A stretch of DNA of 64,000 nucleotides from positions 1,240,001 through 1,304,000 of the forward strand of contig NZ_CP060724.1 of NCBI RefSeq assembly GCF_014397255.1. The letters are read 5' to 3'. The translations under genes were made by a program, and so were the position numbers. This stretch comes from Weissella diestrammenae (lineage in GTDB: Bacteria > Bacillota > Bacilli > Lactobacillales > Lactobacillaceae). The notes beneath the pieces were generated by a model. That model worked only from the letters and a program-made list of their open reading frames with translations, searched no databases and was not told where the DNA came from. Of this stretch, positions 35,104-62,602 are shown in pieces; the stretch's first letter is position 1; every line of letters starts with the position of its first letter.

Positions 35104-35346
35104 ATGCAAGCAGGAATTCACCCAGAATATCGTGACGTTGTATTCGTTGATACAACTACTGGTGCAAAGTTTTTAGCTGGTTCAACAGTTAATACAAATG
35201 AAACAGTTGATTTTGAAGGCGCAACCTACCCAATGGTTCGTATTGAAACATCATCAGATTCACACCCATTCTACACTGGTAAGGCTAAGTTTACTCAAGC
35301 TGACGGTGCAGTTGACAAGTTTAACAAGAAGTACGGTTTGAAATAA
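35104..35346 (+). CDS. rpmE2: Ribosomal protein L31 type B
   Basis: An 80-aa L31 without zinc-binding Cys pairs, therefore type B (zinc-independent form). [29 protein letters not shown] and [13 protein letters not shown] are family blocks. SD AAGGAG. The prophage lies directly downstream, and this 3' region is the probable insertion site. Confidence 0.96.
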
Positions 35347-35360
35347 TTAGAAATCGTTTA

Positions 35361-35412
35361 TAACCCTGTTGTTACGGTACAAACGCCGTTGCAATGGGGC
35401 TTTTCTTTATAT
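35361..35412 (+). terminator. Terminator after rpmE2
   Basis: CCC-GTTG-ACGG pairs with CCGT-CAAT-GGGG over an interrupted stem, followed by CTTTTCTTTAT. Confidence 0.6.
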
Positions 35413-35541: not shown

Positions 35542-36615
35542 TTATTGACCTAAAATATCTAACGTTCTTCCAGCTTCCAAATCTCTTTTGCTGCTTAAAA
35601 GATGAGTATAGACATTCTGAGTTACTGATATGCTTGAATGTCCTAGGCGAGCGGAAACGTATTTTATATCGACATCATGGTTAAGCAAAATAGACGCATG
35701 AGTATGTCGTAATCCATGTGGTGAAATTATTTTTGATGCTCCAATTGAAGTTAATAGCGAAGATAAATGTTTTCCTACAGCTCTTGTATCACTAGTTTCT
35801 CCAAAAATATGTTCATCAAGTGGAGAACACTCAGAAATATATCTATTCAACTGATCAAAAAATTTATTAGGCATTTCTATATGACGAATAGACGAGTTGG
35901 TCTTTGGTTTAACAAATTCAAAGGGGCGATGAGCCGTCTTGGATTTAGTAACACTAATTGTGTTATTTCTAAAATCAATATCATTCATCGTTAATGCGAA
36001 GGTTTCACTTATACGCATGCCGGATAAAGCAGTAGTGTAAATAATCATTAACCATCGATTTAATGGATAATTCTCAATATGATGAACCATGTTATTAAAA
36101 TCTGATTCTTCTAAAAATTTTTGGCTACTATCTTTTGACGCGTGGCCGTTAATTTTAACCCGAAAAGTAGGGTCTTTGTCTAATATACCCTCTGATACAG
36201 CATCCTTAAGAACCATTCCAACATTTACTGACAAGCCTCTAACAGTAGATTTGGCGTGAGTTTCTGCAAAATCATTTAAGAATTTTTGAAAAACATTCTT
36301 AGTAATATCGGAAATCTTTATACCTTCAAAATATTCACTCACTTCTTTTTGAGCAGAGTAGTGCGTTATGAATGTTTGTCTTGCTACATCTGATTTTTCA
36401 TATTTTGCAATCCACTCATCAAAATAATTAGGGAATAATATTTTTTTATTAATATCATTCTCGCTCATCTTTTGTTTATTTTTAAAATCAATCGTATATT
36501 CTTCTGCTTCTTTTTTTGTTCTAAATCCTGACTTTGTTGCACGTTTCCGTTTTCCTTGATTATCACGATAAGAGATAATGGACCTCCAAGTTTTCCCGCG
36601 TTTTTCGTACGATAT
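35542..36615 (-). CDS. int: Phage tyrosine integrase, normal start codon apparently lost
   Basis: A tyrosine recombinase that would integrate and excise the prophage. Catalytic residues are visible: Arg in SGMRISETFAL, HxxR in HGLRHTHAS, and LGHSSISVTQNVYTHL with His and the nucleophile Tyr. The reading frame continues upstream of the first ATG (36468) through the conserved N-terminal DNA-binding domain (YEKRGKTWRSIISYRDNQ, SGFRTKKEAEE) to an ATA codon at 36613-36615 that stands where ATG is expected, 9 nt after AGG. No ATG, GTG or TTG exists between there and the upstream stop. The 308-aa form from 36468 would lack the arm-binding domain. Confidence 0.85.
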   Translation of the reverse strand: MSYEKRGKTWRSIISYRDNQGKRKRATKSGFRTKKEAEEYTIDFKNKQKMSENDINKKILFPNYFDEWIAKYEKSDVARQTFITHYSAQKEVSEYFEGIKISDITKNVFQKFLNDFAETHAKSTVRGLSVNVGMVLKDAVSEGILDKDPTFRVKINGHASKDSSQKFLEESDFNNMVHHIENYPLNRWLMIIYTTALSGMRISETFALTMNDIDFRNNTISVTKSKTAHRPFEFVKPKTNSSIRHIEMPNKFFDQLNRYISECSPLDEHIFGETSDTRAVGKHLSSLLTSIGASKIISPHGLRHTHASILLNHDVDIKYVSARLGHSSISVTQNVYTHLLSSKRDLEAGRTLDILGQ

Positions 36616-45109: not shown

Positions 45110-45775
45110 ATGAATGAACAAATGATAACGGTTAGTGATGATTTCTTCACACCGGCACAACTATCTGAACAGATTAAAGCGATTAACACATCCGACCAAT
45201 CAAATCTGGATAAAAAGGATGAAGTTAATAAGATTATTACGGCATTAAGCCGATTTAAAAAAGCAGCTCAAACAGAATTTAATAGGCAGATACAGCCAGC
45301 ATTGGACTTGGAAAAATAAGCTAAGTTGTTGAAAGGCAATATTGTAATTGCAATTGAACAGGAATGGCATAGCGAAGAAAACAATAATAAGCGACTAGAT
45401 ATTCTGAATGATAAGTTCGGATTAGAAGCTGATACCGATGGTATGGCAGAACGCTTTGCATCAGATAAGAAGTTATGGACACCTGCGGGTAATCCAAGCT
45501 CAAAGATTAAAGACATGATCATTGATGAGCAACGGCGCGAAAAAGAGCAGCAGGAACTCAAGCGTGCACAAGATGCGCTAGAAGCAATGCAACATGATGA
45601 AATCACAACGACTGAAAATGTTCAACCAGTGGCGCAAGAGCCAGTAATTGCAGTCAGTCAAGACAACTGGCAAGAGTTCGTTGACCGAGTAACGCATCTA
45701 GCAAATCAATATTCTGTTCGTTTGGTAGTTAGTCCATTCGAGAAGAAAGTCATTATTGAAAGCGAGGCTGAATGA
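45110..45775 (+). pseudogene. DUF1351 phage protein with in-frame TAA
   Basis: One continuous frame is interrupted by TAA at 45317-45319. The first 69 codons (MITVSDDFFTPAQLSEQIKAI...FNRQIQPALDLEK) and the next 150 (LLKGNIVIAIEQEWHSEENNNKRLDILNDKF...QDNWQEFVDRVTHLANQY) together match DUF1351, a protein usually placed before ERF or other recombinases in Firmicutes phages. A Lys codon to TAA change fits (EKKAK). The two halves are otherwise well conserved, so the mutation is recent. Confidence 0.75.
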
Positions 45776-46399
45776 TGAATATTTACGAAAAATTATTAGC
45801 GATTCAATTTGACTTGAGAGCACCTAAGAATCAGAAAAATGATTTCGGTAAGTTCAGCTATCGAAGTGTTGAAGATATTTTGGAAGCCGTTAAGCCATTG
45901 TTAAAAGAGCAGGAAGTAACTCTTACGTTGGGAGATGGGTAAGCGTATATACATTAATGCCACAGCAACATTACGAGATGCGAAAGATGAGAAACAGATT
46001 ATTGTTGCGACTGGATATGCACGGGAATCCGATACCAAAAAGGGTATGGATGAGATGCAGATAACAGGTGCAGCAAGTTCGTACGCACGAAAGTATGCAC
46101 TAAATGGTTTGTTTTTGATTGATGACAATAAAGATGCTGATACAAATGAGTATGCAAATCAAAATGAATCGAATAAAACAGAAGCTAAAACTAGTAATCA
46201 AAAACCGCACAATGACCTGAATAGTTATTTCACTTTATGGTTTAAGAGACTTCAAGAGAAAAAAGGCTTAACAGAAGCAGCAGTGTATGTGGAATTGAAT
46301 AATACGTTTAAAGTGCCTGACTTAAAAGCATTTGATGCGTTAGATGATGCTAATAAACAGACCATAATTAAATGGTTAAAGACGATTGCAGAATCATAG
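45775..46399 (+). pseudogene. erf: ERF-family single-strand annealing recombinase, frameshifted
   Basis: ERF anneals single strands in phage recombination. The first frame gives MNIYEKLLAIQFDLRAPKNQKNDFGKFSYRSVEDILEAVKPLLKEQEVTLTLGDG and stops at 45942. The other frame continues MGKRIYINATATLRDAKDEKQIIVATGYARES...ITGAASSYARKYALNGLFLIDD, the ERF core. The residues that normally join them (around DEIV-x-IG) are missing, so a short deletion between GAT repeats near 45933 is likely, not a single-base slip. Confidence 0.75.
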
Positions 46400-46408
46400 G
46401 AGTAGCAA

Positions 46409-47120
46409 ATGGATTTTTGGGGACGAGTGACAAACGTTAGCGGTAATGTAGTTACTTTGTCACTAGAAAGTTTAGAAGAAGCTAGTGAAGTCTCACGGTT
46501 ACTAATGCAAGACAAACCTGAAGCATATATTAATATTCCAGATGGTCGATTGATTAGTAAGACACAGCGTAAAAAAGCATATGCGATTATGGGTGACATT
46601 TCGGATTGGGCAGGATATGGGCCTGAAAAAATAAAAGAATTGATGAAGTTTCATTTTGAATTTGAAACAGGGCATGAATATTTTAGTTTTGCTAGTGTCG
46701 ACATGACGACTGCCAGAGAGTTTATTACATTCCTTCTGGATTTCGCCTTAAAAGAGCACATACAGCTTAAAAAGACAGGTTTGGACTAATCAGGACGATT
46801 TAGACGCTTACATGCATCAGTCACTCAAATATCGCTCCTGCGTGCTATGTGGGAGACATGCAGATGTGCATCACATTGATGTAATTGGAATGGGAAATGA
46901 TAGACGCAAGGTGGACCATCGCGGACGGCTATTAATTGCATTGTGCCGTGAGCATCATCAACATGCTCATCAAATGGGTTGGCTGACATTTAAAGACCAG
47001 TATCACGTAAAAGGCGTGACCTTAAATGCAGAAACATTGAACAGATTAGGAATCATGACATACAAGCGAATGAAGGAGATTGACGATGAACAGAGTAGTA
47101 CTAGTAGGACGATTGGCTAG
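46409..47120 (+). pseudogene. Phage HNHc nuclease-like gene, frameshifted
   Basis: The N-terminal half (MDFWGRVTNVSGNVVTLSLESLEEASEVSRLL..QRKKAYAIMGDISDWAGY, 126 codons) stops at 46789. The other frame reads NQDDLDAYMHQSLKYRSCVLCGRHADVHHIDVIGMGNDRRKVDHRGRLLIALCREHHQHAHQMGW, with a Cys/His zinc site and HNH-like His residues. Removing one T near 46786 joins them as LDNQDDLDAY. The intact family protein is about 235 aa and sits between ERF and SSB in related phages. The 3' end overlaps ssb by 35 bp. Confidence 0.7.
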
Positions 47121-47517
47121 AGACGTTGAATTACGCTATACGCAATCAGGAACAGCAGTAGGATCATTTAGTATCGCAGTAAACCGGCGTAAGAAAGTTG
47201 ATGGGCAACCAGAAGCAGATTTCTTTAATGCAACGATTTGGCAAAAGGCGGCTGAGAACTTTGCTAACTTCACACATAAGGGTGCACGAGTTGCGATTGA
47301 AGGTCGTTTACAAACGAGCAGCTACCAAAATAAAGAAGGACAAAACGTATTCAAGACGGAAGTGATTGTTGAGAGTTTTGATTTGCTAGAAACAAGGGCT
47401 GAATCAGAAAGTTACAAGCAAGGGCAGAATAGCAATGATCCATTCAGCCAACCTGCAAATAATCCATTCTCTGGTGGCAATGAGATGAACATCACAGATG
47501 ATGATCTGCCATTCTAA
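47086..47517 (+). CDS. ssb: Phage single-stranded DNA-binding protein
   Basis: A 143-aa SSB with an OB fold (MNRVVLVGRLARDVELRYTQSGTAVGSFSIAVNRRKK, FFNATIWQKAAENFANFTHKGARVAIEGRLQTSSYQNKEG) and the acidic C-terminal tip DDDLPF that binds partner proteins. ATG 47086 follows AAGGAG. One of the few intact genes of the replication block. Confidence 0.95.
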   Translation: MNRVVLVGRLARDVELRYTQSGTAVGSFSIAVNRRKKVDGQPEADFFNATIWQKAAENFANFTHKGARVAIEGRLQTSSYQNKEGQNVFKTEVIVESFDLLETRAESESYKQGQNSNDPFSQPANNPFSGGNEMNITDDDLPF

Positions 47518-47528
47518 AGGAGAAACAG

Positions 47529-48383
47529 ATGGCTCAACGAAGAATGATAAGCAAGAAAGTAACTGATACAGATGTTTTTCTAGAAATGCACTTATCCACA
47601 CAGGCCTTATATTTTCACTTGAATATGCATGCTGATGACGATGGATTTGTAAGTAATGTTAATACCATCATGCGGATGATCGGCGCATCTGGTGATGATG
47701 CAAAGATTTTAATTGCTAAACAGTTCTTGATTCCATTTGATGATAGCGGCGTAGTAGTGATTAAAGATTGGCGTATTCATAACTACATTCGTAAGGACCC
47801 ATATAACGAAACGATGTATAAGGAAGAACGCAAAAAACTCAGTGTTGACGCTAATGGTGCATACCAAGTCAACGAACCGTCTACGGAACGTGCACGTGTC
47901 GTCAACGAGACGTCACCACAGGTTAGGTTAGGTAAGGATAGGTTAGGTAAGGATAGTAAAGATATACGAGCACCGAAAATTGAATTTTCGGAAGATTTCG
48001 AAAAACTATGGGAAATGTATCCAAATAAAAAAGGGAAGAATGTTGCTCAGAAAGCATTTAATAAAGCAATTAAAGATGGTGACACTGTTGAACAGATAAG
48101 AGCAGGTATTGAAGCATACAAGGCTTATACCAAAGCAGAAGGTACTCCAGTTATGTATATCAAACATGGTTCTACATTCTTTAATCAGCGAAGTTGGAAC
48201 GATGACTATACAATTCAAGCTAAACCATCACAACGACAAGTGCCAGTTCGTGAGACACAGCCTGATTGGGATAACCAACCAGTTGAAATTGTTTCAGCAG
48301 AGAAACAGTTAGAGCTGGATAAAATGCTTGCACATATGTCTGATAGACGACGTGAGGCGGAGGACAAGCATGGTATTTCGTGA
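47529..48383 (+). CDS. Phage replication initiator (replisome organiser)
   Basis: A 284-aa protein. The N-terminus (RRMISKKVTDTDVFLEMHLSTQALYFHLNMHADDDGFVSNVNTIMRMIGAS...FDDSGVVVIKDWRIHNYIRKDPY) is the winged-helix domain of Firmicutes phage initiators. A linker with two near-repeated LGKD units (about residue 139) follows, and the C-terminal helices (FEKLWEMYPNKKGKNVAQKAFNKAI) resemble the DnaD-type helicase-loader contact region. DNA repeats coding for the linker may be the phage origin. Confidence 0.85.
   Translation: MAQRRMISKKVTDTDVFLEMHLSTQALYFHLNMHADDDGFVSNVNTIMRMIGASGDDAKILIAKQFLIPFDDSGVVVIKDWRIHNYIRKDPYNETMYKEERKKLSVDANGAYQVNEPSTERARVVNETSPQVRLGKDRLGKDSKDIRAPKIEFSEDFEKLWEMYPNKKGKNVAQKAFNKAIKDGDTVEQIRAGIEAYKAYTKAEGTPVMYIKHGSTFFNQRSWNDDYTIQAKPSQRQVPVRETQPDWDNQPVEIVSAEKQLELDKMLAHMSDRRREAEDKHGIS
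47921..47955 (+). repeat. Tandem 15-bp repeats, candidate phage origin
   Basis: GGTTAGGTAAGGATA occurs twice in tandem (47926-47940 and 47941-47955) with a partial GGTTA before. They lie inside the initiator gene, the usual place for origin iterons in lactic phages. Confidence 0.55.
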
Positions 48384-51375: not shown

Positions 51376-51567
51376 ATGATAATTGGTCAAAATAAAAAAG
51401 TACAAGTGAGCGATAGTAAACTACATACTAAGATTACAGATACAGAAACAATTATCGACTTCGATCTACGAAAAAACGACAAGAAAATTAAAACAACTAA
51501 GGCCACAGCATCAGTCAAAAATGCTAGTGGCTTTTTGTTTGAGTTTGAAGTGGTAAGCGTAGTTTGA
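51376..51567 (+). CDS. Hypothetical 63-aa protein
   Basis: Sequence MIIGQNKKVQVSDSKLHTKI, continuing to an end rich in Lys and Val (TKATASVKNASGFLFEFEVVSVV), probably a small beta-rich protein. AAAGG lies 7 bp before ATG. Cotranscribed with the preceding gene. No family recognised. Confidence 0.5.
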   Translation: MIIGQNKKVQVSDSKLHTKITDTETIIDFDLRKNDKKIKTTKATASVKNASGFLFEFEVVSVV

Positions 51568-51711: not shown

Positions 51712-52125
51712 TTGGCGTTATTACCAGCAATTAACGAACAAGCAACTGTTAGAAATGTAAGACATTTTTTTGATTATGATTTTCTCAGATTACAACAAAT
51801 GGCACATATCTCTTACGTAAGTATAAAGTCCCCGATTATAACCGGAATGCCCACAGGAGAAACGTTTGGTAATTCTAATGATGAAAAGGTAACGAATTAT
51901 GCGTTTGCGAACAAGACGTTAAACGACGTTTTAGAGTCTTGTAAGAGCATGACGTTTCCGCATCGTGATTTTATGGAGTTAAAATATTTTAAAGGTATGT
52001 CGTGGATCGAAATTCAAGAGCTTAAAGGATACTCTGAGAGTAGGGGTTATCAGATAATCAGAGAAGCGTTCTTGCAGTTTGCTGAAGCATTTGCCGATGT
52101 TGAAGATTTTAGAGTTTTCAAATAA
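51712..52125 (+). CDS. ArpU-family phage transcription regulator
   Basis: A 137-aa protein with a sigma-70 region 4-like helix-turn-helix at the end: LESCKSMTFPHRDFMELKYFKGMSWIEIQELKGYSESRGYQIIREAFLQFAEAF. ArpU-type proteins end the early region of many Gram-positive phages and control late genes (packaging, structure, lysis). TTG 51712 follows TGGAGG by 8 bp. No late module follows here. The retron comes next. Confidence 0.8.
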   Translation: MALLPAINEQATVRNVRHFFDYDFLRLQQMAHISYVSIKSPIITGMPTGETFGNSNDEKVTNYAFANKTLNDVLESCKSMTFPHRDFMELKYFKGMSWIEIQELKGYSESRGYQIIREAFLQFAEAFADVEDFRVFK

Positions 52126-52183
52126 TACGAAATATATATAAATATATATTTGATGCATGTAAAATAAAATGTTACAATTTTTC

Positions 52184-52363
52184 AGTCGGGACTGGATCGT
52201 CGTCCTTTGATTCGAAGGATTTGAAAAAAATGGTAGGCCGAACGTTTTGAAGTAACTGGCTAATAGGTCGCAAGTATGTATTTTCAGAGCTTTTAGGCAG
52301 ATAATCGCTTAATTAGTTAATTTGAATAGCGTAAATTTAGTTTGGTAATGAGCTGTCCCGGCT
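52184..52363 (+). ncRNA. Retron msr/msd RNA candidate
   Basis: AGTCGGGAC (52184-52192) can pair with GTCCCGGCT (52355-52363) with one G-U pair, the a1/a2 ends expected of a retron transcript about 180 nt long. Inside, TCCTT-TGATTCG-AAGGA (52203-52219) is an msr-type hairpin. CCGAAC (52238) may pair with GTTTGG (52340) at the base of the msd stem. The RNA ends 18 bp before the reverse transcriptase start. The branching G and exact DNA ends are not determined. Confidence 0.7.
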
Positions 52364-52381
52364 TTTTTTTTGGAGAAAATT

Positions 52382-54214
52382 ATGAATTTGAATGAAGTGA
52401 ATGATGTCGTCGATTTGGCTCGAGTTTTACATTATCCAAGTCGAAAAATTAAAAAAATATTGTACAGAGATAGGGTGGATAATCAATATTTTGAGTTTAG
52501 TTTGGCGAAGAAAAGCGGTGGCAGTAGATTAATCAACGTCCCAAATGAAGTTTTGGCAGATTTACAAAATTGTATTCTTATAGAATTGAAAAGATATATG
52601 AACAATCATGATATTAAATTTTCTAGGGTTTCACAGGCATATCAAAAAGATCGAGAAAAAGGAATATATAGAAACGCTCGTATCCATCGAGGTAGAAAAT
52701 ATGTTATAAATGTTGATTTAGAAGATTTTTTCCCATCTATTCATTTTGGTAGAGTAGTTGGTTTCTTTGAGAAGAATAACAAGTTTAAGTTCACGCATAG
52801 ATGTGCGATATTGCTAGCACAGCTAGTTTGTTACAAAGGTTATCTACCTCAAGGAGCATCTACGTCGCCGCTTATTTCAAATTTAATTTGTCATACATTG
52901 GATATTCATATTCTTAAAATAGCAAAAAAATATCATTTGCGATATTCAAGATTTGCTGATGATTTAACTTTTTCAACTAATGATGATGAAATCTCAACTG
53001 AAGAGCAAATGCATAATTTTATTAAGGAATTAACACGACAAATTGGAAGAGATGGTTTCAAAGTTAATTGGAAAAAGATGCGTATTGCTGGACCGGACGT
53101 AAGACATACTGTGACCGGTCTGGTGAATAATAAAATAGTAAAAGTAAAAAAAGAATATTATAAAAATACGAGAGCAATGGTGAATCAATTGTTTTATACA
53201 CATAGATTCATAATTGATGGAGTCAAGTATAATATTGAAAATGATGAATCAAAAAAAGGCGGCATCAAAAAACTTGAGGGAAGGCTCGCATTCATAGATG
53301 ATATTAATCGAAGAAATAATATTGAATATTTAGACGATATCACAAAGAAAGCGATGACTCGTGTTCAAAATCCGAAAAGATATGACAAATTTTCTGCATT
53401 TGAAAGAATGTATAGACAGTTTCTATTTTTTAAAAATTTTTGGCAACGAAATACACCTTTAATAGTTACAGAAGGAAAGACAGATGTTCTTCATCTAAAA
53501 GAAGCAATAAAAAATTCTGATATTCTATTGCCAAATATCTCTTTCTTCAAACCATCATCTCGATTTGATTTTTTTCTAGGAATAGGGTTTGATGGTGCAT
53601 CGAAGATGGATAAATTCATTAATCTTTACATTAAAGAAAATAGTTTTGAAAATTTATCAATTAAATTTAGAAAAATTGATGATATAAAAAAAGAAAACGA
53701 TCTGTTTGGATTATCTGGAGAATCAAAACCAGTGATTTTATTATTTGATCATGAATTCGCAGACCTGGAAAGTCCAATAAATATGTTTATCAATAATCTG
53801 TCTAAAGACAGAACTTATAGACATATTGAGTCAAAAAAAATTGAGGAATTGGAAAAATATGAGTCGGAAAAACAAAATTCAAATGCGATTAAAAAGTTTC
53901 TGAAGAAAAAATTGAATGAAAATGGATTTATTCATTTAGTAGATAATTTATATGTTTTAGTTATAAAAAAAGATGTTCCGAGTATAAATGAAAAATATGC
54001 AATAGAAGGATTATATCCAATCGAAGTTGTGAATAATGTTTTTGGATTAGGGGTACTTGAAACGTACGCAGATAATAATTTTGAGAATGTGCTAAGTAAG
54101 AACGATTTTTCAAAAATCATTAGACATAAACCTGCTGAAATTTTTAGAGGTTTTAGGCCTACGTTAAGTTGTATTGAAGAAATACTTAAAGATTCAGAAA
54201 ATCGAAATAATTAA
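52382..54214 (+). CDS. Retron reverse transcriptase fused to a TOPRIM domain
   Basis: A 610-aa protein. Residues 1-330 form a retron-type reverse transcriptase: retron motif NARIH (98-102, NAxxH), motif A VDLEDFFPSI (111-120), LPQGASTSPLISN (155-167), catalytic box FADD (191-194, Tyr replaced by Phe) and the retron VTG motif (244-246). Residues about 355-610 carry a TOPRIM-like domain, VTEGKTD (362-368) and LLFDHEFAD (453-461). The RT-TOPRIM fusion is the layout of retron Ec67 (Eco2), where the TOPRIM nuclease is the toxic effector released on phage attack. ATG 52382 follows TGGAGAAAA. The gene is intact amid decayed phage genes. Confidence 0.92.
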   Translation: MNLNEVNDVVDLARVLHYPSRKIKKILYRDRVDNQYFEFSLAKKSGGSRLINVPNEVLADLQNCILIELKRYMNNHDIKFSRVSQAYQKDREKGIYRNARIHRGRKYVINVDLEDFFPSIHFGRVVGFFEKNNKFKFTHRCAILLAQLVCYKGYLPQGASTSPLISNLICHTLDIHILKIAKKYHLRYSRFADDLTFSTNDDEISTEEQMHNFIKELTRQIGRDGFKVNWKKMRIAGPDVRHTVTGLVNNKIVKVKKEYYKNTRAMVNQLFYTHRFIIDGVKYNIENDESKKGGIKKLEGRLAFIDDINRRNNIEYLDDITKKAMTRVQNPKRYDKFSAFERMYRQFLFFKNFWQRNTPLIVTEGKTDVLHLKEAIKNSDILLPNISFFKPSSRFDFFLGIGFDGASKMDKFINLYIKENSFENLSIKFRKIDDIKKENDLFGLSGESKPVILLFDHEFADLESPINMFINNLSKDRTYRHIESKKIEELEKYESEKQNSNAIKKFLKKKLNENGFIHLVDNLYVLVIKKDVPSINEKYAIEGLYPIEVVNNVFGLGVLETYADNNFENVLSKNDFSKIIRHKPAEIFRGFRPTLSCIEEILKDSENRNN

Positions 54215-54437: not shown

Positions 54438-54458
54438 TTGTGTATTTTAAATTAATAA

Positions 54459-54494
54459 AAAGCGTTAGAGCATAAATACTCTAACGCTTTTTTA
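54459..54494. terminator. Bidirectional terminator between retron and McrB-N gene
   Basis: AAAGCGTTAGAG and CTCTAACGCTTT form a 12-bp stem with T runs on both strands. It also contains the stop of the minus-strand gene. Confidence 0.88.
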
Positions 54495-55131
54495 AACTAA
54501 TCTCGAAATTAATAGGAGTTAAATCGAATTCACTAAGAAGCTCGTTACCTCTAATTTCGAAAAATTCAGCACGCTCATTTAACTTAACAATCCTAGTGAT
54601 CGAATAGCTTTCCTTTTTATACTCGATACTGAATATATTACCTAATTCATATCCTTTAGGTAAACGTGTATTAACTAATTCTTGGTTATTAATTAAACTG
54701 ATTGGATCAGCTGAAATGTTTATGTCTAGCCTTGGAGTTGTCAAATTTTCACGCCAGTAATCGGAAACATTACTAACATTGGCTTCAGGATTATCATTTA
54801 ACTCTATATTTTTTTCATAGTAACTCCATCCCTGATTTAGAGAAAGATACACTCTTTTCATGTCAGAAGAGAATAGGTAGACAATATAGAAGCCGCTCGA
54901 AGCACCCAAAGTAATATCTTTATCAAATATTCCTATCCAAGGTATAGTTGCCCAATTTTTAAATTGTCCAACGGAGCCCTTGATTCGATAATTAGTTGAC
55001 CAGTATTCCGTATTAAATGCATTCTTTAGTGATTTAGATTTAATAGATTGAGGTTGATTTTCCTGAAAAGACAAATTTTTCCATGTAGAATAGTTATTCA
55101 TCACGTCCAATAGTGTTTCTTGTATATTCAT
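54481..55131 (-). CDS. Stand-alone McrB N-terminal (DUF3578-like) domain protein
   Basis: A 216-aa protein. The core FKNWATIPWIGIFDKDITLGASSGFYIVYLFSSDMKRVYLSLNQGWSYYEK matches the MrcB_N/DUF3578 domain found at the N-terminus of McrB-like restriction proteins, where it is thought to recognise modified DNA. The AAA+ GTPase of McrB and any nuclease are absent. It may be a separate targeting subunit, an antirestriction factor, or a leftover. SD AGGGAAAAG precedes ATG. It faces the retron across a shared terminator, so it lies in a defence cluster. Confidence 0.75.
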   Translation of the reverse strand: MNIQETLLDVMNNYSTWKNLSFQENQPQSIKSKSLKNAFNTEYWSTNYRIKGSVGQFKNWATIPWIGIFDKDITLGASSGFYIVYLFSSDMKRVYLSLNQGWSYYEKNIELNDNPEANVSNVSDYWRENLTTPRLDINISADPISLINNQELVNTRLPKGYELGNIFSIEYKKESYSITRIVKLNERAEFFEIRGNELLSEFDLTPINFEISLKKR

Positions 55132-55588: not shown

Positions 55589-56230
55589 ATGAAAAATAAA
55601 AAAATAATTTTGAACAACATAATTGGTAGCATATCAATGGGTATCATGATAGTGATAGGAGCCATTTTTATACCGGATAGATTTGGAAATCTTGCCGATT
55701 GGCTAAGTGCTATAAGTACTCTGGGTGCTGTATTACTGTCTTTTAACCTCTCTAACAAAGCTAATAGAGAGATAAATAATAGAGATAGAAAAAAAGAAAA
55801 GAGGGATGGTTACTATGTTGTTTTTCACCAAATAAGTAATTTGAAGGAAGATATTAGTTTGCATTCAACTGATTACAAACACTGGAAAATGATTGTTGAC
55901 GCTGATATGACCACGCACTTCAATAAACTAGAAAGAAATGAAAATATAACTAATAGTGAATTAAAAAATACACTTTCAAATTCCAAAAATGTAAATTCTT
56001 TACTATCCAGATGGAAAAATAATTGGCAACTTAGTATTTTAGCTGAAAATATATTAGAAAAAGAATATTTGTCAGAGTATAAACAAAAGTACGAAAAAAT
56101 GATCACTGGATTAGGCGATATTATTAAAAGTGTAGAGGATAATCAATATGATGTTAGCCCAGATAAAATTCAATTGATATCTGATTTAGAAAATCTAGTA
56201 TTAAAATCATACAATGATTTTAATAAATAA
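55589..56230 (+). CDS. Membrane-anchored helical protein, accessory cassette 2
   Basis: A 213-aa protein: two N-terminal membrane helices (IILNNIIGSISMGIMIVIGAIF and WLSAISTLGAVLLSFNLS) then about 150 aa of charged helices (NREINNRDRKKEKRDGYYVVFHQISNLKEDI...). Low GC and Asn/Lys-rich compared with core genes. No enzyme motif. The shared header ties it to the other cassettes. Confidence 0.65.
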   Translation: MKNKKIILNNIIGSISMGIMIVIGAIFIPDRFGNLADWLSAISTLGAVLLSFNLSNKANREINNRDRKKEKRDGYYVVFHQISNLKEDISLHSTDYKHWKMIVDADMTTHFNKLERNENITNSELKNTLSNSKNVNSLLSRWKNNWQLSILAENILEKEYLSEYKQKYEKMITGLGDIIKSVEDNQYDVSPDKIQLISDLENLVLKSYNDFNK

Positions 56231-56285
56231 TAGTACAATAGTGCACTCGACACTTTAAGGGGAATTTCAACAGTGTTCAATTTCG

Positions 56286-56394
56286 ATTACAGTTTAACTG
56301 TAGTTTTATTGCAGACGGGCTGTAGGCATTTCGTATTATTATGTTAGTATCGAATAATTCGTAAAGGGGATGACTTAGGTTGTCGCCTTTTTTT
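56286..56394 (+). repeat. 109-bp header repeat, copy A
   Basis: About 88 percent identical by eye to 58928-59035. It contains the palindrome TACAGTTTAACTGTA, GTTAGTATCGAATAATTC, and a terminator-like GGGGATGACTTAGGTTGTCGCC with T7. Confidence 0.75.
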
Positions 56395-56414
56395 ACAGGA
56401 AAGTTGATAATAGT

Positions 56415-56579
56415 ATGAAGAGCAGAATTCGAATAATTTTATTAATAACACTTACATTCGTGATATCAAAAACCAGTATATTATTTGTAATCCATAGTAG
56501 TAACAATATTTGGATCCATTTGTTGTCTTCTATTTTGATTACACTATCTATCATTTTATTATGGTGGTTACTATATTGA
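56415..56579 (+). CDS. Small two-helix membrane protein (54 aa)
   Basis: Helices IRIILLITLTFVISKTSILFVI and HLLSSILITLSIILLWWLLY. AGGAAAG lies about 12 bp before ATG. It follows header copy A and precedes cassette 3. Unknown, could be holin-like or toxin-like. Confidence 0.5.
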   Translation: MKSRIRIILLITLTFVISKTSILFVIHSSNNIWIHLLSSILITLSIILLWWLLY

Positions 56580-56619
56580 TATAGGTACTTTGCTATAATT
56601 TATTCATAAGGAGTAAATT

Positions 56620-57462
56620 ATGAATAAAAAATTTGGCTTTACAATTATCATTTTTCTTGTACTTTCATATGGAATGTTTATTACTATGGAATTAATTGAT
56701 AATAATATTAATTTGATTTCAAAAACTTCACCAATAGGAGCATTAATATCTGTGGTGATAAGTGTAATATTGACAATGATTGTAAACAAGCAAAATAAGG
56801 AAGATCAAGAGAGAAAAATTCGGGAAGAGGTAGGGCGCGAAACAACAAAATTACGGAATGATTTGTGGATAAATAGGTATCGAGATGAAAGAAAAGTTCT
56901 TAAGAACATGCTCGAAATAATTTCGAACCTCTCATCGACTAGTACTTCCTTAATGTCTTCTTTTGAAAAAAATCAGATGGATGAATGGACTGAGATTGAA
57001 ATGAATTTTGGCTCTCTTTTCAATCAACTGATTAAAGAAGGGGCAGATATGATAACGCCACAAAGGATATTAGGTAGTTCATTGAAGAGATGTCAATCGG
57101 AATTTGAGAAAATTAGATCAAGATATAATCTAGAAAACGACAAAAATCAATATAAATGGTTTGTAACATACTGCAAGAATGAATATTTTTATAATAAAAA
57201 AATAGATGATTTCAATGACGCTGGGCAATTAATACATCTCTTAACTAGAACAATTGTTACTTACGATGAATCTGCGAGAAATATCCAACTTAGACAAGAT
57301 GGTCTTAAATTAGATAGAGCTGGCAAAACAAAACAGCAACAAAATCTAAATCAATATAGAGATGATATATTTGCTATTATTGGTGTGTTATTAATGTTGA
57401 AAGCTGTAGTAACTAGCAGAATATCTAAAATGCGTCAATTAGAGGAATTACGAAGGAATTAA
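56620..57462 (+). CDS. Membrane-anchored helical protein, accessory cassette 3
   Basis: A 280-aa protein with two N-terminal helices (FTIIIFLVLSYGMFITMEL, PIGALISVVISVILTMIVN) and a 215-aa charged, mostly helical domain (DQERKIREEVGRETTKLRNDLWINRYRDERKVLKNMLEII...). TGCTATAAT and AAGGAG stand directly upstream. Similar topology to cassettes 1 and 2 but no obvious sequence identity. No known motif. Confidence 0.65.
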   Translation: MNKKFGFTIIIFLVLSYGMFITMELIDNNINLISKTSPIGALISVVISVILTMIVNKQNKEDQERKIREEVGRETTKLRNDLWINRYRDERKVLKNMLEIISNLSSTSTSLMSSFEKNQMDEWTEIEMNFGSLFNQLIKEGADMITPQRILGSSLKRCQSEFEKIRSRYNLENDKNQYKWFVTYCKNEYFYNKKIDDFNDAGQLIHLLTRTIVTYDESARNIQLRQDGLKLDRAGKTKQQQNLNQYRDDIFAIIGVLLMLKAVVTSRISKMRQLEELRRN

Positions 57463-57494
57463 ATACGTGAATGTAAATAGAGGAAGACAAATAA

Positions 57495-58079
57495 ATGACA
57501 TGGTGTGAATTTTTGTTTCAAACGGGAGATCATCATTTTCAATGGGTCGGTATTTCAGCGTTATTGGCTGGAATAGGGTTAATTTTTAACGCAATATGGA
57601 ATAGGAAAAGTTTTAGAGCCGATCTTATTTCTAAGAATCGTATAGAATGGATGAATACAGCCAGGTCACTTATTTCTGATTTGGGAATATATGCAGAAAG
57701 TGCTATTTCCGCGGGCATAGTAGTAGTGTCTGCAAAGACGGGATTCTATAAAAATGAAAAGTTAAATGATTTGACTCAAAAAGCGAACGACGAATTAAGC
57801 AAGTATACAAAGACAGCATTTAACCTACATCTATACATTTCAACGGCAGATGATAATAAAAAATTAAATGATGCGATTGATGGATTAGAGACGGTTTTCA
57901 GTGATTTGAATGAAGAGATTAATGGCAATGAAATAGACAATCAACTAAAAAATTATGATGATTTCTTAAACTACCATAAAAAATCATCGAATAAAATTTT
58001 TGAAGCACGGAATGAGTTAATGACTGTTGCTCGCACATACTTTAAGAACGAATGGGAACGTGCAAAACGTGGAGAGTAA
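57495..58079 (+). CDS. One-helix protein with RIEWMNTARxLISD motif, accessory cassette 4
   Basis: A 194-aa protein: an N-terminal helix (WVGISALLAGIGLIFNAIWNRKSFRADLISKNRIEWMNTARSLISDL) and a soluble helical domain. The pattern of a membrane helix followed by SRIEWxxxxR is common in phage and plasmid proteins of Firmicutes with no known job. SD GAGGAAG. A terminator follows at 58088. Confidence 0.65.
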   Translation: MTWCEFLFQTGDHHFQWVGISALLAGIGLIFNAIWNRKSFRADLISKNRIEWMNTARSLISDLGIYAESAISAGIVVVSAKTGFYKNEKLNDLTQKANDELSKYTKTAFNLHLYISTADDNKKLNDAIDGLETVFSDLNEEINGNEIDNQLKNYDDFLNYHKKSSNKIFEARNELMTVARTYFKNEWERAKRGE

Positions 58080-58211
58080 TAGGCCGTCTGACAAATGTTG
58101 GGCGTTTTTTGTAGAAGAAGTAATTTGAATGAAATGTAAAACTTCTTTTGATATATCACAGTTACCTTATCTTGTTATAATATATGTATCAAAAATAAAG
58201 CAGGTGATAAT

Positions 58212-58757
58212 GTGGATCCAGAAACGAATAAAATAGTGGCACAATTGGCTGATATTACGATTAGAAATACTGCAACTATCATCCATGATAAAATAACGGC
58301 CTCTAAAGCCAAGAAGAATGATAAAGAGACTATAGCCGAGTTAACGGATATTATTTCTGAATTGTTGAGTGATAAGCAAGAACTGCAAAGAATTTCAGGA
58401 TATTTTGAGAATGAACTTATAGCACAAAAAATTTCTGATGAAGATTTAACGTTTATTGCGGAGACTGTCGTTCCTACTATAGAAAAATTATTAGTAGATA
58501 GTGATGATATGATGGATAACTTAAATAAAATAAAACCTCTACTTTCGCGAAGTACGTTTAATGTTTTGCAGATGATTGGTTTTAACTTTAAAAAGGGTAT
58601 AGGAGAACCACTTACAAATTTGTTAAGCGATGCAATTAGTGGAATTAAAGAAAAGCAAAATGATGAGCTTTCTACTGTCATAGCAAATAGAGATATTGAG
58701 TATTTTAAACTATTACAAGATAAAGACGCCTTTGACAGGTGGCGAAGTATTCAATAA
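58212..58757 (+). CDS. Soluble helical protein, accessory cassette 5
   Basis: A 181-aa acidic helical protein without membrane segment (MDPETNKIVAQLADITIRNTATIIHDKI..KISDEDLTFIAETVVPTIEKLLVDSDDMMDNLNKIKPLLSRSTFNVLQMIGFNFKKGIGEPLTNLLSDAI). GTG start with AGGTGAT. The IKPLLSxxTFxxLQxIGFNFKKGIGEPLT block looks like a defined domain that I cannot name. Its own TATAAT lies at about 58174. Confidence 0.6.
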   Translation: MDPETNKIVAQLADITIRNTATIIHDKITASKAKKNDKETIAELTDIISELLSDKQELQRISGYFENELIAQKISDEDLTFIAETVVPTIEKLLVDSDDMMDNLNKIKPLLSRSTFNVLQMIGFNFKKGIGEPLTNLLSDAISGIKEKQNDELSTVIANRDIEYFKLLQDKDAFDRWRSIQ

Positions 58758-60441: not shown

Positions 60442-60910
60442 AAAAATAAGGCCCAAGAATTGAGTTCTAAAGGGCCATTATACATAAGTACGTTTTTTAA
60501 AACGGAAATTAAATGGCATTTTTTCTATAGATAAAAATTAGGCCGGTGGAGAATTATTAGAACAAAAATTAAAAAAAGCCAAATTTCTTAAGTTTTATAC
60601 TTCATGTTGTTCTTTCAATATATTTTTTTAGATTCCGTAGTATATAATTTAAAGAAGTGAATAAATTTAAGCTAGATTTCTCACGTTTATCTTTCATAAA
60701 TCATCATGTAATCATGGATAAACGGATTGTTATTCGTACAATAGTTCGTGTTTTTTAAAGAAAAAAATATAACGAAAAATTGCCAATTTATAACTGCGTT
60801 AGGTCTCGCTGTTATCATTAAGAATGAAAAATAAGTGGCGAATTAGCAAAAAATTTTAGATGAGTTTGAAGAAATTAAACAAATATTATCTAGCAAACGA
60901 GGATAAAAAA
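60442..60910. other. Non-coding region at the right prophage edge
   Basis: AT-rich, no gene recognised. GGCCC..GGGCC (about 60451-60477) may be the lysin terminator. The right attachment site should be here or beyond, but I found no clear match to the sequence after rpmE2. A second start for mod (ATG 60860) lies at its end. Confidence 0.45.
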
Positions 60911-62602
60911 ATGATTGATTCAAAAATTATGGAGATAACAAAATCTATTTTAAAAGATTTTGGGAATACTTATTTTTCAGAAAAAGGTGCTTTGAGGCGT
61001 AATAAAGTGATAGAAGACCTTGATGCATATACACCAATGTTGATGAAAGTATTATTAGCAGATGAACTAATTCATAGCACATATACAGAAAAACTTACAA
61101 TAAATGGTGAAAGTATAGAAATTTTTAAGCTCAACCAGTTTATTGAAATGTTTACCTATAAAGAGTATTGGCAAGATAGCTACACGAAATTCGAAAACAA
61201 AATTGGACTTACTGCGGGTGGTAAGTTTATTGATGAGACTGCTGATGTTGTGTTAGATTTTCCCTTCAAAGATACCGTTTTAAAAGCTGGTATGACGAAA
61301 GAAGATCAAAAAGATACTGATGAACCTTTTTTGCATGAAACGATCGCTAAAGCTGAAATTGACCAATTATTGGAACCCAAAGTATTTGTTAATGCTACTA
61401 AGTATGACGAAGAACATTTAGATGGTGAAGCTATCAGTGACTTTGATGATGATAATTTAATTATCAAAGGAAATAACTTGATCACTCTTCATAGTTTGAA
61501 CGCGATTTATGCGGGTAAAGTCCAATTAATATATTTGGACCCACCCTATAACACAGGTCAAGATGGCTTTGCATATAATGATAAATATAATCGCTCAAGC
61601 TGGTTAACTTTTATGTTTAATCGTCTACAAATTGCAAAAAAGCTACTTTCTGATGACGGAAGTATATTTATTAACATTGACTATCACGAAGTTCATTATT
61701 TAAAAGTATTAATGGACAACATTTTCGGAGAACAGTATTTTAAGAATAATATTGTTTGGAATTATACAGGACCATCTGGTTCCAATAAATTTCTTCCACG
61801 TAAACATGATGATATTTTGTATTATGGCAAAGGTTATAATACTAAATATCATATTCAATTTATCAAACATAAAAGTGGAATTCATAATTCTGGGCAAGTT
61901 TTTGGGAATAAGGACAGTTCTGAAAGTTACAAATCAGAAACTGAGGCTAAAGGCAAGAAATTAGAAGATTGGTGGGATGATATATACTCCACTGACCGTT
62001 ATAGAAAAGAATTATTAAATTTTTCTGGACAAAAACCAGAAAAATTAATTCAAAGAATTATAAATATTGCCACTGATGAGAATGATATAGTGTTAGATTT
62101 TTTTATGGGTACTGCAACAACACAGGCAGTCGCCATGAAGATGAACCGTCGCTTTATCGGGATTGAACAGATGGATTACATTAAGACTGTTTCTGTGGAG
62201 CGCCTCAAAAAGGTGATTGCTGGAGAACAAGGTGGGATCTCTAAAGATGTTAATTGGCAAGGTGGTGGCGCATTTATCTATGCTGAATTGATGGAAAAGA
62301 ATCAAGGATATCTCAAAGATGTCCAACATACAGAAACGGCTAAACAATTAGATGCAGTCATTAATCGCATGATTGCTGGTAGTGCTGACTTTGACTTCCG
62401 AGTTGATGTTGAAAAGATGATGCAAGATCCTGAATTCCAAGTGATGACATTAGTCGAAAAAAAGCAGCTGATGATCAAAGTCATTGATAAGAATCAGTTG
62501 TATTACGCTTATAGTGATATGGAAGACCGTGACGTACAAGATTTGATGTCTAAGAGTGACATTTCTTTCAACAAGAGTTTCTATAAGGAGCGTGATCTGT
62601 AA
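60911..62602 (+). CDS. mod: Type III restriction-modification methyltransferase (Mod)
   Basis: A 563-aa beta-class N6-adenine-type methyltransferase that also supplies target recognition. LIYLDPPYNTGQDGFAYND carries the DPPY catalytic motif, and motif I (AdoMet binding) DIVLDFFMGTATTQAVAMKMNRRFIGIEQ follows later, the order expected for type III Mod. The middle variable region is the target-recognition part. The end with GGGAFIYAEL is a Mod hallmark. ATG 60911 has GAGG 8 bp ahead. ATG 60860 lacks an SD. It overlaps res. Confidence 0.93.
   Translation: MIDSKIMEITKSILKDFGNTYFSEKGALRRNKVIEDLDAYTPMLMKVLLADELIHSTYTEKLTINGESIEIFKLNQFIEMFTYKEYWQDSYTKFENKIGLTAGGKFIDETADVVLDFPFKDTVLKAGMTKEDQKDTDEPFLHETIAKAEIDQLLEPKVFVNATKYDEEHLDGEAISDFDDDNLIIKGNNLITLHSLNAIYAGKVQLIYLDPPYNTGQDGFAYNDKYNRSSWLTFMFNRLQIAKKLLSDDGSIFINIDYHEVHYLKVLMDNIFGEQYFKNNIVWNYTGPSGSNKFLPRKHDDILYYGKGYNTKYHIQFIKHKSGIHNSGQVFGNKDSSESYKSETEAKGKKLEDWWDDIYSTDRYRKELLNFSGQKPEKLIQRIINIATDENDIVLDFFMGTATTQAVAMKMNRRFIGIEQMDYIKTVSVERLKKVIAGEQGGISKDVNWQGGGAFIYAELMEKNQGYLKDVQHTETAKQLDAVINRMIAGSADFDFRVDVEKMMQDPEFQVMTLVEKKQLMIKVIDKNQLYYAYSDMEDRDVQDLMSKSDISFNKSFYKERDL

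Follow-up and report, generated by a model that had tools for sequence, protein, structure and literature searches.

Among retron fusions, those of a reverse transcriptase (RT) with a Toprim domain are the most frequent (PMC12405507), and Eco2 (Ec67) of E. coli, of type I-C, is the only RT-Toprim retron for which a solved structure and a tested mechanism were found in the literature. For Eco2 there are a structure, an autoinhibited msDNA-RT trimer, and a free Toprim domain with RNase activity and toxicity; denB mutants escape, and activation has been linked to DenB (PMC12405507). The same work gives the anatomy of the system: in the non-coding RNA (ncRNA), a branching guanosine at G15, a hairpin at positions 20–42 and an msd of 67 nt from G52; in the protein, a Y199 that touches msDNA bases, a catalytic lysine named K562, and the residues E374, D378, D460 and E515, at each of which a change to alanine abolishes defence (PMC12405507). 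The Toprim nuclease fold is also shared by the nucleases of the OLD family (6nk8, 6njx) and by AriB of PARIS (8v46), which differ from the retron in being ATPase-coupled and in having neither RT nor msDNA.

The locus considered here lies at 52184–54214 of a stretch of 64,000 nucleotides from Weissella diestrammenae (contig NZ_CP060724.1, positions 1,240,001 to 1,304,000), called the window in what follows and numbered from its first letter. Very probably it is an intact, apparently working retron of the canonical type I-C (Ec67/Eco2-like), which a decayed prophage carries as cargo in a member of the Lactobacillaceae; it is a further member of a well-known family and not a new kind of system. 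The architecture, the intact coding sequence, the ncRNA with its covarying stems, the invariant residues and the Toprim fold are all computed here (Table 1).

Table 1. Coordinates in the window of the retron, its parts and its surroundings
Feature	Position	Strand	Basis or remark
Left 45-bp direct repeat (putative attL)	35322..35366	+	3′ end of L31-like ribosomal protein gene
Tyrosine-type phage integrase of the element	35542..36468	-	
ArpU-type late regulator of the prophage	51712..52125	+	58 bp upstream of the ncRNA
Promoter-like TTGATG-17-TACAAT, TG before the -10	52150..52178	+	9/12 matches; predicted +1 roughly at the start of a1
Retron ncRNA (msr-msd), 180 nt	52184..52363	+	Covariance model from other species
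a1 arm (AGTCGGGACTG)	52184..52194	+	Paired with a2 at 10/11 positions, the other a U-U mismatch; stem covaries in relatives
Predicted branching guanosine, 2′-5′ priming site, equivalent of Eco2 G15	52195	+	Relatives' alignment and Eco2 anatomy (PMC12405507)
msr hairpin, AUU triloop (GUCCUUUG-AUU-CGAAGGAU)	52202..52220	+	Alignment, covariation
Predicted msd template, ~120 nt	52232..52351	+	Alignment to Eco2 and relatives
a2 arm (CTGTCCCGGCT)	52353..52363	+	Pairs with a1
GGAG ribosome-binding site	52372..52375	+	6 bases 5′ of ATG 52382; read from sequence
RT-Toprim fusion protein, 610 aa	52382..54214	+	ORF, profile matches, fold
Retron RT domain, ~residues 1–352	52382..53437	+	Profile and structure matches
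FADD catalytic box, residues 191–194	52952..52963	+	Y at 191 in 79/80 family members
Toprim domain, ~residues 353–610	53438..54211	+	Residue alignment, separate structure model
Strong terminator-like hairpin 3′ of the retron, bordered on each side by A and T runs	54457..54492	-	T run on plus strand too

The RT-Toprim Protein

The RT-Toprim frame opens with ATG and contains no internal stop; as a single polypeptide with RT and Toprim its product falls inside the type I-C range of ~550–690 aa, and the gene is present in one copy in the 1.66-Mb host genome. The PADLOC model RT-Toprim_I-C matches residues 1–606 with 508 bits, far above the other retron types, and NCBIfam NF038237 (retron_Ec67_fus) gives 455.0 bits in the protein search and 453.4 in the genome search, which passes the curated cut-off of 450 bits narrowly. 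By sequence, the best match in the PDB is Ec67/Eco2 (E 8.8e-70), and the structural evidence leads to the same protein: the closest solved structure to the full-length AlphaFold model (pLDDT 89.6, pTM 0.88) is Eco2, with Z 31.2 and 533 residues aligned, and its resting and activated states are the top structure matches along the whole length of the model. When the C-terminal 259 residues are predicted separately (AlphaFold pLDDT 87), the domain on its own is modelled as an OLD-type Toprim, closest to the Toprim of Eco2 (Z 17.8, 2.4 Å, 202 residues, 23% identity), followed by that of the OLD nucleases 6nk8 and 6njx (Z ~8) and by AriB (8v46, Z 5.5), with the Toprim of RNase M5 lower.

The residues were compared in an alignment of 80 family proteins with 29–40% identity to the 610-aa protein, and all those that are invariant in it are kept here: in the RT domain N98 and H102 of the NAxxH motif, D112, D193, D194, and T245 and G246 of the VTG motif (244–246); in the Toprim domain, whose motifs are E364GKTD368 and D456HE458, the residues E364, D368, G405, D456, E542 and K573. 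The Toprim signature (Glu, Gly, D-x-D/E and the second-metal Glu) is thus complete in the C-terminal domain, and the invariant set includes the counterparts of the four acidic residues of Eco2 needed for defence. Where Eco2 has Ser513 the family has differing residues (Glu, Asp, Ala and others), and the present protein has Ala there (residue 540). The equivalence of K573 to the catalytic lysine of Eco2 is unproven at the level of the alignment, because the K562 named in PMC12405507 is not a lysine by our own count and the invariant K573 aligns with K546 of Eco2.

Two positions were singled out as unusual in the preliminary description, and they have fared differently. The Phe in the YADD box is indeed rare, as FADD appears in 1 of the 80 aligned proteins and F191 is the sole residue other than Tyr at its position, with both catalytic Asp, D193 and D194, present. 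Tyr is usual in the type I-C criterion, [Y/F]xDD, and does not by itself define it, so F191 is a departure within the type; it could lower RT activity, the Y199 of Eco2 being in contact with msDNA bases. The DHE in place of DxD, on the other hand, had been taken as a mark of divergence, and this part must be abandoned: every one of the examined members from Bacillota genomes has Glu following D-x, and those from other phyla have Asp, a split of 40:40 with virus contigs included. Judged from this alignment, DHE is a clade character, the Bacillota DxE form, and no oddity, because DxE is the rule in Bacillota and DxD elsewhere; the idea that DHE marks a divergent or dead Toprim is rejected on the same split.

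The msr-msd RNA

A covariance model was built from the RNAs of 19 relatives, leaving out the locus itself, and against the window it matches 52184–52363 with 53.8 bits and E 3.2e-11, the next match having 19.9 bits; against the whole genome the same segment is found with E 8.3e-10. Applied to 72 further loci from many phyla, the model gives one match, directly upstream of the RT, in 71. In the alignment of the relatives, the a1/a2 stem and the msr hairpin together show 71 two-sided changes, compared with 16.6 ± 3.6 in shuffles, and 96.7% of stem cells are paired, against 24–51% when the alignment is slid. It was this covariation across species that settled the structure, single-sequence folding being uninformative as evidence (z -1.3 for the ncRNA, 0.07 for the msr and 0.09 for the msd).

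By alignment, the 5′ end of the msDNA would be templated near A52351 and its 3′ end near G52232, where the predicted end of reverse transcription, AAU/GG, is the same in relatives. The whole ncRNA is larger than most in the family (median 131 nt, range 120–191, in relatives), and its msd is long for the family. The predicted msDNA of 120 nt reaches -3.3 kcal/mol, no better than shuffles, and under the same approximate boundary rule the msDNAs of the family generally fold weakly or no more than averagely (median z -0.25); a stable msDNA hairpin was dropped as a criterion because most relatives also fold no better than shuffles. The promoter-like element in front of a1 is supported only by its position, since the promoter scan overall finds sites no more numerous than in shuffles. 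Rfam 15 contains no family that reaches its gathering score on the window or on the type I-C ncRNAs of five relatives (L034, L067, L046, L083, L002), so that the covariance model, together with the DxE/DxD split, could help to annotate the family.

Put side by side with Eco2, the locus has the same plan: a single RT-Toprim protein with the same catalytic acids, and directly upstream of it an ncRNA in which a1/a2, one triloop msr hairpin, the branch G and the msd are found in the same order. The triloop is AAU in Eco2 (PMC12405507) and AUU here, with a closing G-C pair common to both. The differences lie in the overall identity of ~32% (23% in the Toprim), in FADD versus YADD, in DxE versus DxD, in Ala versus Ser513, and in an msd of ~120 nt versus 67 nt. 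The preliminary description, which had proposed from the letters alone a complete RT-TOPRIM retron with the layout of Ec67/Eco2, was in this respect right almost to the base: the covariance match, obtained with other species, begins exactly at its left boundary, and the msr/msd-like RNA that it had placed directly upstream has the stem covariation described above. Its retron-type RT with NAxxH and VTG agrees with the motifs, with the PADLOC and NCBIfam scores, and with the fold search, and its fused TOPRIM-like domain is borne out by the separate C-terminal model, which speaks for a Toprim fold.

The Prophage Setting

The retron had also been placed in a prophage, and the location stands; the state of this prophage is another matter. 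The right copy of the 45-bp repeat lies beyond the window, at the window-equivalent position 68325, which gives an element of 33.0 kb that contains integrase, repressor, anti-repressor, SSB, a DnaD-like loader and ArpU. A 14-bp deletion has put its Erf out of frame, as comparison with the undamaged Erf of another prophage in this genome shows; its RusA is split and its endolysin is cut to a remnant. Terminase, portal and capsid have no family match among the ORFs of the element that were examined, and no gene for packaging or structure was recognised in the stretch from ArpU to the right repeat; the element does not have the packaging, structural and intact recombination genes of a complete, inducible prophage. 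Because of the broken Erf and RusA, the truncated endolysin and the unrecognised packaging and structural genes, the best reading of the element is a prophage in decay, in which the retron and a type III restriction-modification pair have stayed intact.

The second prophage, at C1:1360000-1379900 of the genome (L220), is apparently fuller, with intact Erf, terminase, portal and capsid genes, and it is 89% identical over 2.9 kb to window positions 45443–48362. A remnant of a baseplate protein at 51376–51567 is 90% identical to part of this fuller prophage. In a sister prophage of another genome (G366), from which the retron is absent, the genes that come after ArpU are of the baseplate, HNH and terminase types.

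Other genes of the element deserve mention. The type III pair (Mod, Res) is found intact at 60860–62602 and at the window-equivalent 62602–65214 (L036:3603-6215), with a GNAT acetyltransferase and then a Fic/Doc protein downstream; the Mod region shares 84.5% identity with Lactobacillus phage JNU_P5. No close phage relative with the retron was found, the sole long megablast match being the one that covers the type III methyltransferase. Adjoining the retron, at 54481–55131 on the minus strand, there is a stand-alone McrB N-terminal-like domain (PF12102, E 1.5e-36) without the AAA+ motor. Between the retron and the endolysin remnant, at 55589–58757, lies a row of small ORFs that look like membrane or coiled-coil proteins (213, 280, 194 and 181 aa), with no matches in Pfam and almost none in PHROG or PADLOC; they are possible further cargo.

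Proposed Mechanism and Alternative Explanations

If we accept the analogy with Eco2, the ncRNA would probably be transcribed from a promoter of its own, immediately after the ArpU-like gene, and the a1/a2 stem would present the branching G (~52195), from which the RT domain would prime and copy the msd from ~52351 back to 52232. The product, an msDNA of ~120 nt, would remain bound, and the complex of msDNA, RT and Toprim would keep the Toprim nuclease inactive, as in Eco2, until damage to the msDNA, or its disturbance, by a phage factor frees the Toprim domain; this domain would then cut RNA and halt the growth of cell and phage. In this form the retron would be an msDNA-gated, RNase-based abortive defence. 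The Toprim toxin is a well-founded reading by reference to Eco2 (PMC12405507), and from the same source we infer for this copy the production of msDNA, the assembly of the complex, the RNase activity, the trigger and the protection. The Bacillota branch, with its DxE and, here, also with FADD and a 120-nt msd, might differ from Eco2 in its substrate or trigger, for example in acting on another class of RNA or in being released by something not like DenB, which we regard as unlikely.

The main doubts concern the function of the retron, and they come from F191 and from the decay of the neighbourhood. A retron of type I-C structure could have stopped working as a passenger of a decaying prophage, the change from YADD to FADD being an early lesion; the broken Erf and RusA, the truncated endolysin, the terminase, portal and capsid genes not found in the element and the uniqueness of F191 among 80 relatives would all fit such a history. 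However, in a passenger of this kind one has to account for a 610-aa frame that is open, for every invariant residue and both ncRNA stems being kept, for promoter-like and ribosome-binding elements in place, and for neighbouring type III restriction genes that are intact too; moreover, FADD boxes exist in active RTs such as LINE-1 ORF2p. A loss of function is, on balance, improbable, even if the working type I-C retron has to carry, besides its decaying surroundings and its F191, a weakly folding predicted msDNA, an NF038237 score barely above the cut-off and a Toprim identity to Eco2 that is low.

The element itself could be understood in another way, as a phage-inducible satellite with the retron as its defence cargo against other phages, given that integrase, repressor, anti-repressor and replication genes stand between direct repeats without packaging or structural genes, and that defence cargo is typical of such islands. 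The broken Erf and RusA, the truncated endolysin and the baseplate remnant so similar to the fuller prophage of the same genome point instead to deletion from a full prophage, and a satellite origin has a correspondingly low probability. The nature of the RT leaves far less room for debate. For a group II intron, DGR or other defence RT with a fortuitous resemblance to Toprim, the one argument is the generic RT fold that it has in common with these enzymes (47.8 bits with the group II RT model, Z 16.9 with a DGR RT). The group II score stands against a cut-off of 300, the RT-Toprim I-C family score is ten times higher, the match to Eco2 is full-length, retron structures outrank all those of group II and DGR enzymes, and retron-specific motifs and an ncRNA are present; a group II intron or DGR enzyme, an outcome that would have contradicted the preliminary description, is refuted, and the probability of any RT of these kinds is close to nil. 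The type I-C retron in a decayed prophage is the reading retained.

Relatives and Distribution

The nearest relative in the tree (support 0.997, 44% identity) is the RT-Toprim retron of Leuconostoc (L002, genome G085; L041, L. inhae KCTC 3774, where AEMJ01000007.1 carries the gene). It resembles the present locus in its DHE motif, in the same U-U mismatch of a1/a2 and in TGGTAG at the start of the msd, and differs in having YADD and an ncRNA of 134 nt instead of 180. The proteins of Enterococcus, Staphylococcus and Lactiplantibacillus annotated as 'retron Ec67 family RNA-directed DNA polymerase/endonuclease' share family and layout at 35–40% identity, and differ in being plasmid-borne, in having YADD and, where the upstream region is readable, in a shorter msd. 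Family members are annotated in numerous genomes besides these. The novelty that had been implied is less well supported, since relatives from Lactobacillaceae are annotated in public records; this copy itself is probably untested so far. A query with the single protein found no relatives in the genome and viral collections, and a query with the alignment found hundreds, some of them in Lactobacillaceae. At the level of genomes, an RT-Toprim match is present in 1 of 28 from the genus and in 6 of 397 from the family; in the order, 14 of 395 lie above the NF038237 cut-off.

As a complete member from a lactic acid bacterium, with the ends of its ncRNA predicted to the base, this retron offers a test case for the Bacillota form, and it is a possible tool for DNA production in food bacteria. 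Editing has already been done with Lna1, a retron from Lactobacillus nantensis whose type is not stated there (PMC12262390).
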